Below, in pieces: positions 24,019-28,390 of a stretch of DNA of 64,000 nucleotides; the stretch's first letter is position 1, and every line of letters starts with the position of its first letter. Position numbers and translations under genes: made by a program. This DNA comes from Wenjunlia tyrosinilytica. GTDB lineage: Bacteria; Actinomycetota; Actinomycetes; Streptomycetales; Streptomycetaceae. Below the pieces are notes generated by a model. The model worked only from the letters and a program-made list of their open reading frames with translations, was not told where the DNA came from and ran no database searches. The stretch spans positions 1-64,000 of the forward strand of contig NZ_BMMS01000012.1 of assembly GCF_014646055.1 (NCBI RefSeq). Reading direction: 5' to 3'.

Positions 24019-24879
24019 TCACGACGCCCGGCCCGTCCTCGCCGAGGGCCCGGCCTCGGGCCGAGGTTCGGGCCCAGATCCAGATCCAGATCCAGATCCA
24101 GATATGGATACAGAGCCAGAGCCAGAGCCAGAGCCGGGCCCACCGGGCGAGGGCGTGGAAGGCACAACGGCGGGACCCACCGGCCCCGGTCTGGCCGGCG
24201 GCCCCAGGGCCGCGGGGACCGTGGGCAGACGGTGATCGCCGACCGCCACCGGCCGTTTGCGGTCGCGGCGCCTGGCCGCCCACTGGGCGACCGCGCCGAT
24301 CGTGGCCACGGCGGCGGAGACGCCGATGCCGAGTCCGACGGCGTAGAAGGAGTTCGAGGTCACCCGGCCGCCGAAGTAGCCCAGGCCCACGGAGTAACTC
24401 GCCCAGACGCCCTCGGCGATGAGCGCCCCGAACAGATACCGGCGGGCGGGGAAGCGGATGACGCCCGCGGCGAGGCCGCCGAAGACACGGCCGCTGGGCA
24501 GGAATCGCATACCGATGACGAACGGGACGCCATGCCGCTCTATCCGCAGGGCCGCCCATTCCATCAGTGCCCGGCGGCGCGGCCGGCGGTAGACACGGCT
24601 GAGCACGCTGTTGCTCATGGCGGCGCCGCCGCGGTGGATCAGCATGTCGCCGAGGACCGCGCTCATGGCGACCACGGCGAGTACGGCGAGGATGTTGAGA
24701 TCTCCGCGAGCGGCCAGGACGCCGCCGGTGACCAGGATCGCGGAGTTGGGTATCAGCGGGGGCGCCGTGGTGACGCCGAGGATGCCGTACGCCAGAAGAG
24801 CGTTGCCGCCGAGGTGGGTCGCCAACGGCTCGGTGAAGTCGAACGCCGACAGCTCGGACAGCGTCGAGAGCCAGCCCAC
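24019..24879 (-). CDS. DedA-family (VTT domain) membrane protein with Ser-Gly-rich tail
   Basis: Encodes about 286 residues. The GTG at 24879 is chosen because AAGGAGG lies six bases upstream. The VTT/SNARE-associated domain covers about residues 10-200. It includes the re-entrant region PLIPNSAILVTGGVLA and the conserved FLPSGRVFGGLAAGVIRFP, with several membrane helices. DedA proteins are linked to lipid scrambling and proton-dependent membrane homeostasis. The last 60 residues are low complexity (Ser-Gly and Pro-rich), encoded by hexamer repeats, and probably disordered in the cytosol. Transcription is divergent from the copper chaperone gene. Confidence 0.85.
   Translation of the reverse strand: MGWLSTLSELSAFDFTEPLATHLGGNALLAYGILGVTTAPPLIPNSAILVTGGVLAARGDLNILAVLAVVAMSAVLGDMLIHRGGAAMSNSVLSRVYRRPRRRALMEWAALRIERHGVPFVIGMRFLPSGRVFGGLAAGVIRFPARRYLFGALIAEGVWASYSVGLGYFGGRVTSNSFYAVGLGIGVSAAVATIGAVAQWAARRRDRKRPVAVGDHRLPTVPAALGPPARPGPVGPAVVPSTPSPGGPGSGSGSGSVSISGSGSGSGSGPEPRPEAGPSARTGRAS
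24075..24136. repeat. Hexanucleotide repeats CAGATC and CAGAGC
   Basis: About five CAGATC-type units followed by four CAGAGC units encode the Ser-Gly-rich C-terminal tail of the DedA protein on the minus strand. Confidence 0.85.
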
Positions 24880-25006
24880 GCCCGCCTCCTTCCGCCCCTG
24901 CGGTCCCGTGTCTCCCCCGGACCTCCGCCACGCCGCTGAGGTCACGCTGTCAGGTGAAAAATCAGCACGTCAATCGCATTACGGCCGAGCGGGGGGCGTC
25001 GGGGGA

Positions 25007-25255: not shown

Positions 25256-25495
25256 ATGAACAGCTCCACCGCCGCCACCGGGACCCACACGGCCGTCTAC
25301 TCCGTCTCCGGCATGACCTGCGGACACTGCGAGAAGGCGGTCGGCGAGGAGATCGCCGCCCTGCCCGCGGTGACCTCCGTCGAGGCCGACGCCAAGAGCG
25401 GAAGGGTGACGGTGACCGCCACCGCACCCCTGGACGAGGACGCCGTCCGCGCCGCCGTCGACGAGGCCGGTTATGAGTTGGTCGGACGCGCCTGA
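25256..25495 (+). CDS. copZ: Heavy-metal-associated domain protein, copper chaperone CopZ
   Basis: Encodes 79 residues, one HMA domain. The metal site is SGMTCGHC (CxxC) after the first strand, and the domain ends in AGYELVG. The size and the single domain match CopZ chaperones, which carry Cu(I) to P-type ATPases. GGAGG lies a few bases before the ATG. The upstream CsoR-like operator supports copper induction. No copA or csoR gene is adjacent, so the partners must lie elsewhere. Confidence 0.92.
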   Translation: MNSSTAATGTHTAVYSVSGMTCGHCEKAVGEEIAALPAVTSVEADAKSGRVTVTATAPLDEDAVRAAVDEAGYELVGRA

Positions 25496-25659: not shown

Positions 25660-26403
25660 TCACCGCCCGAGCAGTTCGCCGCCGTTGCAGTTGAGGATCT
25701 CACCGGTGATGAAGCCCGCGTCCGGCGAGGCGAGGAAGAACACGGCCGCCGCCACGTCCGCGGGACGGCCGACCCGCCCGACGAGGGTGCGCCCCGCGCG
25801 GCGGGTCAGCTCGGCGTCGTCGAGCCGGTCCCCCCAAAAGCCCGTGCCCTCGATCGTTCCGGGCGCCACCACGTTCGCGGTCACCCCGCGGGAGCCGAGC
25901 TGGGCGGCCAGGGAGTGGTTCCAGGCGTGCAGGGCGGACTTGGAGGCCCCGTAGGAGTCCCCGCCGCGCAGCGCCGCCACCGAGGAGACGGTGACGACAC
26001 GGCCCCGCTCGGGGGTGAGCCGGTCGCGGACGGAGTCGGTGAGCAGGACGGCGGTCAGCACATTGCGCTCGAAGTCGCCGCGCCAGCGGGCCAGCACGGC
26101 GTGCGGCCCCCCGCTGAGGACGGGCTCGCGGCTGCCGGCGCTGTTGACCAGGACATCGATCGTCCGGGGCAGCGAGGCGAGGGAGGCCTCCACCGCGTCC
26201 GGGTCGGCGAGGTCGCACACGACGGGGACCACATCGGGACCACCGGGCGCCCTCAGCTCCTCGGCCGTGGCCCGGAGCACGTCACGGCGGCGGCCGACGA
26301 TGACCACCCGGTCACCCGCCTCGGCGAACTTCCGAGCGACCGCGCGCCCGATGCCCGTGCCTCCGCCCGCCACCACGACGCTGCGGCCAGCCGCCTCGCT
26401 CAT
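25660..26403 (-). CDS. Short-chain dehydrogenase/reductase
   Basis: Encodes about 247 residues from the ATG at 26403 with GAGGTG upstream; longer readings have no start signal. SDR motifs are AGGGTGIG at the cofactor site, NSAG, SSVAAL and the catalytic YGASK. The end ITGEILNCNGGELLGR is typical of the FabG-like group, with Asn-Gly in place of the usual DGG. It is a monocistronic oxidoreductase of unknown substrate. A long structured intergenic region lies upstream. Confidence 0.88.
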   Translation of the reverse strand: MSEAAGRSVVVAGGGTGIGRAVARKFAEAGDRVVIVGRRRDVLRATAEELRAPGGPDVVPVVCDLADPDAVEASLASLPRTIDVLVNSAGSREPVLSGGPHAVLARWRGDFERNVLTAVLLTDSVRDRLTPERGRVVTVSSVAALRGGDSYGASKSALHAWNHSLAAQLGSRGVTANVVAPGTIEGTGFWGDRLDDAELTRRAGRTLVGRVGRPADVAAAVFFLASPDAGFITGEILNCNGGELLGR

Positions 26404-26658
26404 CGCACCTCGCACGCTCTTCGTACAATCAACACCCATGCCGGACAACGCCGTTCGCGCCCGGGGGCAGACCACGCTACGCGATACGAATCCGCTGCTC
26501 GCACGGGCCCCGACCGACAACATAAGAGACGCAGATCACACCTCTCGGAACGTAACCCCTCGGCCGGTACGGTGGTCTTAGCAGGTGCAGGCACGCCGCG
26601 CGCCCGGCGCCGACGGCACCGCCTGCCACCGGAACCCCGGCGGATCCGGTGAGGTGGC

Positions 26659-26870
26659 GTGGACTGTCTTGGGGGACGGTCCACACTCGCAAACGCCGGG
26701 GCGGAGTGACCAGGGAGCTTGAGCGGCCCTCCTGGAAGGCTCCCGTCCCGGCGACGCGGAGGAGGGCCGCTGGTCCTCGGAAACGCCCGGCACGGACCCG
26801 TGGGGGGATCCGTATCCGGGGCTTGAAAGCGCCCCGCACCGGACCCGTGGGGGGATCCGGTGCGGGGCGC
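26659..26870. other. Cluster of strong hairpins and a 20-bp direct repeat between SDR and citrate synthase genes
   Basis: The following structures were seen: GTGGACTGTC (26659-26668) with GACGGTCCAC (26675-26684); AGCGGCCCTCCT (26722-26733) with AGGAGGGCCGCT (26761-26772); and a 15-bp perfect stem at 26829-26843 with 26856-26870. A 20-base sequence (CGGACCCGTGGGGGGATCCG) occurs at 26794-26813 and 26840-26859. The last hairpin is well placed as the citrate synthase terminator. The remainder could be an additional terminator, a small RNA, or a repeat element. No coding frame fits. Confidence 0.6.
26829..26870 (-). terminator. Terminator of the citrate synthase gene
   Basis: A perfect 15-bp stem (GCGCCCCGCACCGGA with its complement) with a 12-base loop lies about 80 bases past the citrate synthase stop on the minus strand, followed there by TTTC. 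Confidence 0.7.
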
Positions 26871-26882
26871 CTCGTTTGTACG

Positions 26883-26938
26883 GCTGTTCCGTTACCGCTG
26901 TTCCGTTACCGCTGTTCCGTTAAGGCTGTTCCGTTAAG
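26883..26938. repeat. Four 14-bp tandem repeats at the 3' end of citrate synthase
   Basis: The unit GCTGTTCCGTTACC is present four times head to tail (the last two end AAG rather than ACC), stopping 12 bases before the citrate synthase stop codon. It lies in the 3' untranslated region. Confidence 0.85.
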
Positions 26939-26950
26939 GCTGTGCGGCGG

Positions 26951-28240
26951 TCAGCGGGCCTCGACGGGAACGTATTCCCGCAGTTCGACGCCGGTGTAGA
27001 CCTGGCGCGGACGGCCGATACGGCTGCCGGGCTCCTTGATCATCTCGTGCCAGTGGGCGATCCAGCCGGGCAGGCGGCCGAGCGCGAACAGCACCGTGAA
27101 CATCGTGGTCGGGAAGCCCATGGCCCGGTAGATCAGGCCGGTGTAGAAGTCCACGTTCGGGTAGAGCTTGCGCTCGACGAAGTAGCTGTCGGCCAGCGCG
27201 TGCTCCTCGAGCTTGAGCGCGATGTCCAGCAGTTCGTCGGACTTGCCCAGCGCCGAGAGGACATCGTGCGCGGCGGCCTTGATGATCTGCGCACGCGGGT
27301 CGAAGCTCTTGTAGACGCGGTGGCCGAAGCCCATGAGCTTGACGCCGTCCTCCTTGTCCTTCACCTTGCGGATGAAGGAGTCGACGTCGCCGCCGTCGCG
27401 CTTGATGCCCTCGAGCATCTCCAGCACCGCCTGGTTGGCGCCGCCGTGCAGCGGGCCCCACAGCGCGTTGATACCGGCGGAGATGGACGCGAACAGGTTG
27501 GCCTGGCTGGAGCCGACGAGGCGGACGGTGGAGGTCGAGCAGTTCTGCTCGTGGTCCGCGTGCAGGATGAGGAGCTTGTCCAGCGCGTTGACCACGACCG
27601 GGTCGAGTTCGTAGTCCTGGGCCGGCACGGAGAACGTCATCCGGAGGAAGTTCTCGACGTAGCCGAGGTCGTTGCGGGGGTAGACGATCGGGTGGCCCAT
27701 GGCCTTCTTGTAGGCGTACGCGGCGATCGTCGGAAGCTTGGCGAGAAGGCGCACCGTGGAGATGTGCCGCTGCTCCTCGGAGAACGGGTTGTGGCTGTCC
27801 TGGTAGAAGGTGGACAGGGCGCTCACCACGGAGGAGAGCATCGCCATCGGGTGCGCGTCGCGCGGGAACCCGTCGTAGAAACGTTTGACGTCCTCGTGCA
27901 GAAGGGTGTGCTGGGTGATCTCGTTCTGGAAGACCGCCAGCTCGTCCACCGTGGGCAGTTCGCCGTTGATCAGCAGGTAGGCCGTCTCCAGGAAGCTGCC
28001 GCGCTCGGCGACCTGCTCGATCGGGTAGCCCCGGTAGCGCAGTATGCCCTGTTCGCCGTCGAGGTAGGTGATGGCGGACTTGTAGGCCGCGGTATTACCG
28101 AAGCCGCTGTCCAGCGTGACCAGACCGGTGTCCGCCCGGAGCCTGCCGATGTCGAAGCCCTTGTCACCGACCGTGCTCCCGACCACCGGATAGCTCTGCT
28201 CGCTGTCCCCGTACCGCAGTACTACAGAGTTGTCGCTCAC
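26951..28240 (-). CDS. gltA: Citrate synthase
   Basis: Encodes 429 residues. The GTG at 28240 is chosen (SDNSVVLRYGD start) because GAGGG precedes it at normal distance; this matches the Streptomyces CitA start as I remember it. Type I citrate synthase motifs are HADHEQNCSTSTVRLVGS, GPLHGGANQAVLEML, the active-site MGFGHRVYKSFDPRA, and YTGLIYRAMGFP near the catalytic Asp. It condenses oxaloacetate with acetyl-CoA at entry to the TCA cycle. It is monocistronic, with a strong terminator and four 14-bp repeats in the 3' region. Confidence 0.97.
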   Translation of the reverse strand: MSDNSVVLRYGDSEQSYPVVGSTVGDKGFDIGRLRADTGLVTLDSGFGNTAAYKSAITYLDGEQGILRYRGYPIEQVAERGSFLETAYLLINGELPTVDELAVFQNEITQHTLLHEDVKRFYDGFPRDAHPMAMLSSVVSALSTFYQDSHNPFSEEQRHISTVRLLAKLPTIAAYAYKKAMGHPIVYPRNDLGYVENFLRMTFSVPAQDYELDPVVVNALDKLLILHADHEQNCSTSTVRLVGSSQANLFASISAGINALWGPLHGGANQAVLEMLEGIKRDGGDVDSFIRKVKDKEDGVKLMGFGHRVYKSFDPRAQIIKAAAHDVLSALGKSDELLDIALKLEEHALADSYFVERKLYPNVDFYTGLIYRAMGFPTTMFTVLFALGRLPGWIAHWHEMIKEPGSRIGRPRQVYTGVELREYVPVEAR

Positions 28241-28390
28241 GTCATCCCTCACCGACGATTTGCCTCTTCTTCGAGGTGCCCTGACTGCTTACTACCTTCC
28301 CCCATTTGGCGCCGAAGCGTGCACCCGGGGTCGCCGGAGGGGCCTTACGATGGCACCCAGTGCCCCCGAGGCCGTGCACGGCCGAGCCAT

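Follow-up and report, generated by a model that had tools for sequence, protein, structure and literature searches.

A predicted small RNA gene of the scr2736 type, with its own promoter, converges on the citrate synthase gene of Wenjunlia tyrosinilytica and its relatives

The region beside the citrate synthase gene citA of Wenjunlia tyrosinilytica appears to hold an independent small RNA gene, a homologue of scr2736, which would be read from its own promoter towards citA. In its complete form, the reading favoured here also has the RNA controlled by a Crp-family regulator, acting in trans through several loops and sharing a terminator with citA; this whole is given a probability of roughly two in three. 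Comparison of related loci shows a conserved promoter of apparently single use, a series of hairpins that partly covary, and a place by citA in nearly every locus picked through Rfam. The kind of element is already known and one part of it is catalogued in Rfam; it is the extended anatomy that is set out here. The DNA analysed, termed the window, is a stretch of 64,000 nucleotides (contig NZ_BMMS01000012.1, positions 1 to 64,000), and the features discussed are collected in Table 1.

Table 1. Features of the predicted RNA gene and the adjoining citA gene; positions are those of the window.
Feature	Position	Strand	Remarks
Crp-like dyad AGAGACGCAGATCACA	26525-26540	+	half-degenerate form of TGTGA-N6-TCACA
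GTAACC, -35-like element	26552-26557	+	
GTCTTA, -10-like element	26575-26580	+	23 nt from GTAACC, start to start
Predicted RNA, ~290 nt	26587-26880	+	start placed by the -10 element and end by the terminator hairpin, both inferred; family conservation, covariation
CCGGCGG-loop hairpin	26627-26651	+	in many relatives a second UUGGGG hairpin takes its place
UUGGGG-loop hairpin	26659-26684	+	from the fold and the stems of relatives
Long core hairpin	26694-26753	+	folding z -3.36
Apical loop word UUGAGCGGCC	26719-26728	+	in 68 of 70 Rfam-picked loci; missing in L156 and L180
Inverted repeat	26722-26733 / 26760-26771		12 nt, 100%
Part matched by RF02831 (Scr2736)	26784-26843	+	
Direct repeat	26786-26812 / 26833-26859		27 nt, 89%; includes the 20-mer noticed earlier
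First CCCGUGGGGGGA-capped hairpin	26793-26812	+	cap 26797-26808
Second CCCGUGGGGGGA-capped hairpin	26829-26870	+	cap 26844-26855; T-rich tail
Inverted repeat	26829-26846 / 26853-26870		18 nt, 94%; terminator-like
14-nt tandem array	26882-26943	none	4.4 copies, 93% matches; spacer between terminator and citA stop
Citrate synthase gene citA	26951-28252	-	433-aa ORF; convergent neighbour of the predicted RNA

A structured block next to citA

A previous interpretation of this DNA, made without database searches and referred to as the sequence-only reading, had noticed hairpins, a 20-bp direct repeat and a 14-bp array in the block 26659-26938, and had judged this to be more structure than a terminator requires. 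A repeat search and folding z scores locate all of these where it placed them, and comparison with shuffled sequences bears out the judgement. The plus strand of 26640-26880 has a folding z of -4.17, with none of 200 shuffles folding equally well, and the block 26659-26938 has a z of -3.45. Among 46 blocks of 280 nt sampled through the window, one per 1400 nt and with 30 shuffles each, the block at 26601 has the lowest value, -5.05.

The limits of the block needed redrawing. The conserved element begins to the left of 26659, its promoter occupying 26525-26580, and does not include the 14-mer array. Conservation, whose absence would have counted against that reading, is found for the promoter, the core and the 3′ module; the array is seen only in its own genome among those compared. 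Outside the loci of that genome the 14-mer word is found in none of all the loci compared, and the array is missing from the genus's other genome (G001, locus L121). To judge from sequence, the array is not part of the conserved RNA. The proposal of a repeat element holds to the extent that the 20-bp repeat is a hairpin module of the RNA present in duplicate, and fails for a repeat element separate from it.

The promoter

The Crp consensus is TGTGA-N6-TCACA. The dyad keeps the right half of this consensus, and in most members the left half reads GAGA. In 49 representatives with equal spacing, GAGA (dyad offsets 1-4) stands at 98-100% and conservation drops sharply upstream of it; TCACA and GTAAC stand at 100%, partly because the loci were chosen by these words. 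A full dyad has been seen in only two relatives (TGTGACACAGGTCACA in L122 and TGTGACCCAGATCACA in L112). Nearly all members have GAGA where the consensus has GTGA, so that the proposal of a Crp-family regulator is a guess based on the shape of the site.

GTCTAA or GTCTTA lies exactly 23 nt from the start of the GTAACC-type box in 44 of 64 tabulated representatives, and six further representatives were scored at 28 instead of 23, an earlier GCAAC having been taken as the box. The arrangement is one that we take to resemble ECF-type promoters. The pattern GAGA-N6-TCACA-N11-GTAACC occurs once per genome in 57 of 121 family genomes and never twice; the remaining 64 have no exact match, and the reversed pattern, used as a control, has none in all 121. 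By coordinates, 40 of the 57 matches coincide with a known copy of the RNA or with citA. The window has one match, and 100 shuffles of it have none. Being single wherever it occurs, the pattern looks like a promoter dedicated to this one gene.

The promoter GTAACC also resembles the half-site of MtrA, as given by the consensus in the accessible part of PMC12323332. The MtrA site that this part of the source reports for SCO2736 lies upstream of the citA coding start, away from the RNA promoter.

Identity and distribution of the gene

The Rfam family RF02831 (Scr2736) matches the plus strand over model positions 1-64 of 64 and scores 43.6 bits, where its gathering score is 43; this is the single copy in the window's genome. 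Matches at E<=0.001 are found in 186 of 297 family genomes, 153 of them above the cut-off, and none in 14 control genomes. In the portion of PMC8388888 that was available, scr2736 is among 11 S. coelicolor ncRNAs with confirmed expression, its S. ambofaciens homologue is sRNA #10, and an antisense RNA to gltA2, citrate synthase 2, is listed. Downstream of citA, Streptomyces and related genera share a single conserved unit that is oriented towards that gene. The comparison indicates a conserved gene several times longer than RF02831, with the 64-nt model covering only the 3′ part. A limited search of the literature on scr2736/SCO2736, covering main texts and not supplements, found no description of the long form, the promoter or the loop modules.

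Seventy loci (30 + 40) were picked by their RF02831 match alone, so that words could be counted without choosing by them. TCACA-N10-12-GTAACC is found in 67 of these (L014 read on the wrong strand). With L014 put on the correct strand, the full promoter pattern is present in 66 and the loop word UUGAGCGGCC in 68; the raw counts were 65 and 67, and the misread L014 was the source of one control match each. Among the promoter misses, L015 has GAAACC for GTAACC and L162 has ATCTAA. The citA gene, whose product shows 79-89% identity to citrate synthases of Streptomyces and Kitasatospora, lies inside the examined stretch (1-3 kb) in 68 of the 70 loci; it is not in the 1-kb stretches of L175 and L180.

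Two of these loci are reduced forms. L156 (G185) has kept a promoter with ATCTAA, one UUGGGG-like hairpin and the 3′ module; its core hairpin and loop word are gone. L180 (G103:C1), the second RF02831 match of its genome, is without promoter, core or citA in 1 kb, and from its sequence is a separate copy of the 3′ module.

Where loci were picked by words, 110 of 127 family loci combine the dyad, a GTAAC-type box and the core word, with L123 added by hand. The 17 that fail are L015, L035, L045, L047, L051, L123, L133-L141, L156 and L180. Two of them (L140 and L141) carry distant paralogues of citrate synthase, L035 and L051 offer merely 112 and 224 nt past citA, and L045 has GTGACCGACGTCAC at the position of the dyad. 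These counts are of loci, some from the same or very close organisms, and the 65 representatives used below were selected via shared 8-mers.

The range of the gene appears wider than that of the Rfam model. Genera missed by RF02831 (e.g. g3, g4, g10, g11 and g14) retain promoter-like boxes and the core word. When 28 family genomes, mostly chosen for a missing or low RF02831 score, were fetched by citA, the unit was beside citA in 21 and not beside it in seven (genera g2, g5 and g15). A word test downstream of citA gave no match in 53 loci outside the family; the same test was positive in 23 of 27 family loci. Class-wide, the core covariance model R1 matches 23 of 296 genomes, all of genus g9. 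Its failure to match the window's own genome and G043 makes it a poor guide to absence in other genomes.

The 5′ hairpins and the core

The core hairpin can be drawn with at least 10 pairs around its loop in 108 of 109 distinct sequences. UUGAGCGGCC is invariant in the 51 sequences of alignment A1, which were themselves selected by TGAGCGGCC, and RNAalifold on this alignment finds just three pairs. Alignment A2 consists of 31 of the 65 representatives, selected for the UUUGAG loop type, and the covariation counts therefore rest on that set. In it, 93.2% of cells in the core are paired, against 90.7% when shuffled. The covariation score of 0.152 exceeds the shuffled value of 0.109 and is reached by none of 500 shuffles; by two further measures the signal is weaker, 32 and 45 of 500 shuffles scoring as high.

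The core loop region AGCGGCCCTCCT (26722-26733) has a perfect 12-nt complement at 26760-26771, which might permit an alternative fold. By eye, this complement is missing in L121, from the other genome of the genus.

To the 5′ side of the core, a word search finds either two UUGGGG loops or, as in the window, a single UUGGGG loop together with the CCGGCGG word. In six of 65 representatives the single UUGGGG loop is present and the CCGGCGG word is missing. The search finds no G-loops in nine of the 65, all from deep genera, and G-loops therefore cannot be required for an ancestral function. The RNA of the window has three G-loops, and 29 of the 65 representatives have at least four.

The 3′ module and the direction of transcription

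In 55 representatives the 3′ module consists of two hairpins with CCC-GUGGG-GGG caps, in which the closing pairs are invariant and the stems vary. The second capped hairpin is the likely terminator of the RNA by its structure. It has T-rich flanks on either strand and, read the other way, may possibly be the terminator of citA too, which would make it the only structural link to citA.

Related modules are found at other places. Downstream of citA, L112 has three tandem copies of the module of capped hairpin and terminator. Of the 25 matches of the cap motif CCCGTGGGGGGA in seven genomes, 15 lie away from the RNA and 10 belong to it, a pair in each of five genomes. L297 (G007:C2:262056), at another genomic location, holds a strong CCCGTGGGGGGA-capped hairpin with AGACGCCCGG ahead of it, as the RNA has.

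The minus strand of 26640-26950 folds well too (z -6.90), as inverted repeats must, and the strand therefore needed other evidence. Standard pairs are more frequent on the plus strand, both in the core (479 of 514, against 400 on the minus strand) and in the 3′ module (1495 of 1533, against 1411), for structures taken from the plus strand. Because such structures favour the plus strand by design, each strand was also folded separately. The consensus fold of the 3′ module is then -52.69 kcal/mol on the plus strand and -36.83 on the minus strand. For the core, all 31 sequences give -9.42 plus and -5.79 minus, and the 25 closer sequences favour the minus strand (-19.22 plus, -23.39 minus). The plus strand is therefore assigned from the promoter, RF02831 and the 3′ module, the core result being mixed.

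The sequence-only reading had thought of a small RNA made from the citA 3′ region. A small RNA is probably what is present. The promoter and RF02831 lie opposite citA and run towards it, and so the RNA is probably not derived from the citA 3′ end.

Possible mode of action

Transcription would start near 26587 and stop near 26880. A Crp-family regulator bound at the dyad 26525-26540 may set the level of the RNA according to carbon status. The RNA would then act in trans, its fixed loops (UUGAGCGGCC, UUGGGG or CCGGCGG, and the two GUGGG caps) being offered to one or more partners, and would work as a multi-site binder rather than as a single-seed antisense RNA. The last hairpin probably forms a two-way terminator common to the RNA and citA. 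Binding of partners through several loops is favoured because there is no second perfect full-loop complement in nine g9 genomes, CsrA was not found in 61 family genomes, and 6C RNA is present irrespective of G-loops. The main rival is pairing through a seed that is shorter or imperfect; an effect confined to cis, at the 3′ end of citA, is less likely.

Could the RNA pair through its apical loop with one conserved mRNA, and so block or open a start site? The retention of UUGAGCGGCC while the surrounding stems change would suggest a pairing seed, and scr5239 of Streptomyces works by pairing (according to the part of PMC8388888 available). There is also a possible start-region site, ATGGCCGCTCAA, at L191 in the own genome. 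Against this, the 12-nt complement GGCCGCTCAAAG is found exactly once, at the RNA itself, in eight of nine g9 genomes, and not at all in the ninth (G043), so these genomes have no other perfect full-loop target; further copies exist in some genomes of other genera. The 10-nt word matches the own genome 22 times and its reversed control 72 times; one of the 22 is the RNA and none is an evident start-site target, a weak negative since gene calls were crude. The g9 counts rule against a full-loop antisense target and leave room for a shorter seed. Single-seed pairing is an explanation to be kept in mind, with odds clearly below even.

A role in cis only is unlikely. In this explanation, a two-way terminator and a convergent transcript would shape the citA 3′ end, or lower citA expression by collision or RNase III. 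The tail-to-tail arrangement in 68 of 70 Rfam-picked loci (citA within 1-3 kb) and the T-rich sequence on both sides of the last hairpin agree with it, as does L156, which has retained promoter and terminator and lost the core. However, no terminator needs a rigid promoter and a conserved loop 100 nt upstream.

A more ambitious form of the multi-loop reading is a modular, Crp-controlled RNA hub by citrate synthase, in which the CCGGCGG hairpin gave way to G-loops within Streptomycetaceae, and up to four or more G-loops titrate C-rich RNA (e.g. 6C) or an RNA-binding protein. This is speculative, and we hold it to be improbable as a whole. If true, such a hub would couple carbon status to development.

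It is a little more doubtful still that the RNA serves specifically as a sponge of 6C RNA, its G-loops kissing CCCCCC loops. The 6C loops of the own genome, with eight and seven C, and the number of G-loops noted above fit such contacts. However, a search of 61 family genomes finds 6C in 60, genera with a G-loop-less RNA included, and the complementarity between the two RNAs is of G against C alone, with nothing longer. Coupling to 6C is unsupported, 6C being present whether or not the RNA has G-loops. A sponge of CsrA in the manner of CsrB/RsmZ, suggested by GGA on the 3′ side of several loops, is most improbable and is unsupported, since a search for CsrA (PF02599) in 61 family genomes, among them that of the window, found none, with E. 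coli, B. subtilis and T. maritima positive as controls; another GGA-binding protein is possible.

The multi-loop RNA is notable for an unusually rigid promoter that is never present twice in 121 genomes, for its fixed loops and for its position by the gene of a central enzyme. Functional characterisation of Streptomyces sRNAs is limited to a few (PMC8388888, in the part available), and loss of citrate synthase blocks development (PMC12323332 and PMC6344877, likewise in part). The extended anatomy provides a testable promoter, start and set of loops.

Other observations were made in the neighbourhood. The region upstream of citA (window 28253-28360; L114, L117, L120, L125 and L128) looks conserved, with GGCAAATGGGGGA..GTCAGGGCACCT and a nearby GGCACT-N-GTGCCA-like repeat, and from sequence is a possible regulatory region of citA. 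At 24074-24132 of the window, a six-base tandem repeat encodes a run of Gly and Ser residues close to the end of an ORF that resembles a membrane protein (24019-24945, minus strand). A small metal-binding ORF (copper chaperone-like, with GMTCGHC) at 25256-25495 adjoins an SDR-like gene upstream of the RNA.

Comparison with known systems

The closest known relative is Scr2736 (RF02831). The whole 64-nt model is matched above its cut-off on the strand opposite citA, and the relatives matched by the model adjoin citA too. The differences are that the score is barely over the cut-off, and that the promoter, the 5′ hairpins and the core hairpin lie outside the model.

The 6C RNA (RF01066) resembles the predicted RNA in being actinobacterial and in having hairpins with homopolymer loops. 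Unlike the G-rich loops of the window RNA, those of 6C are C-loops, and 6C has a gene of its own in this genome; RF01066 has no match in the window at the gathering score, nor in 26400-27000 at E<=1. The CsrB/RsmZ sponges likewise have several hairpins with similar G-containing loops, the difference being that CsrA was not found in the 61 family genomes.

Spot 42 is a Crp-controlled sRNA of enterobacteria. The predicted RNA may resemble it in being under Crp-family control, which here is read from the dyad only, and in its link to central carbon metabolism.
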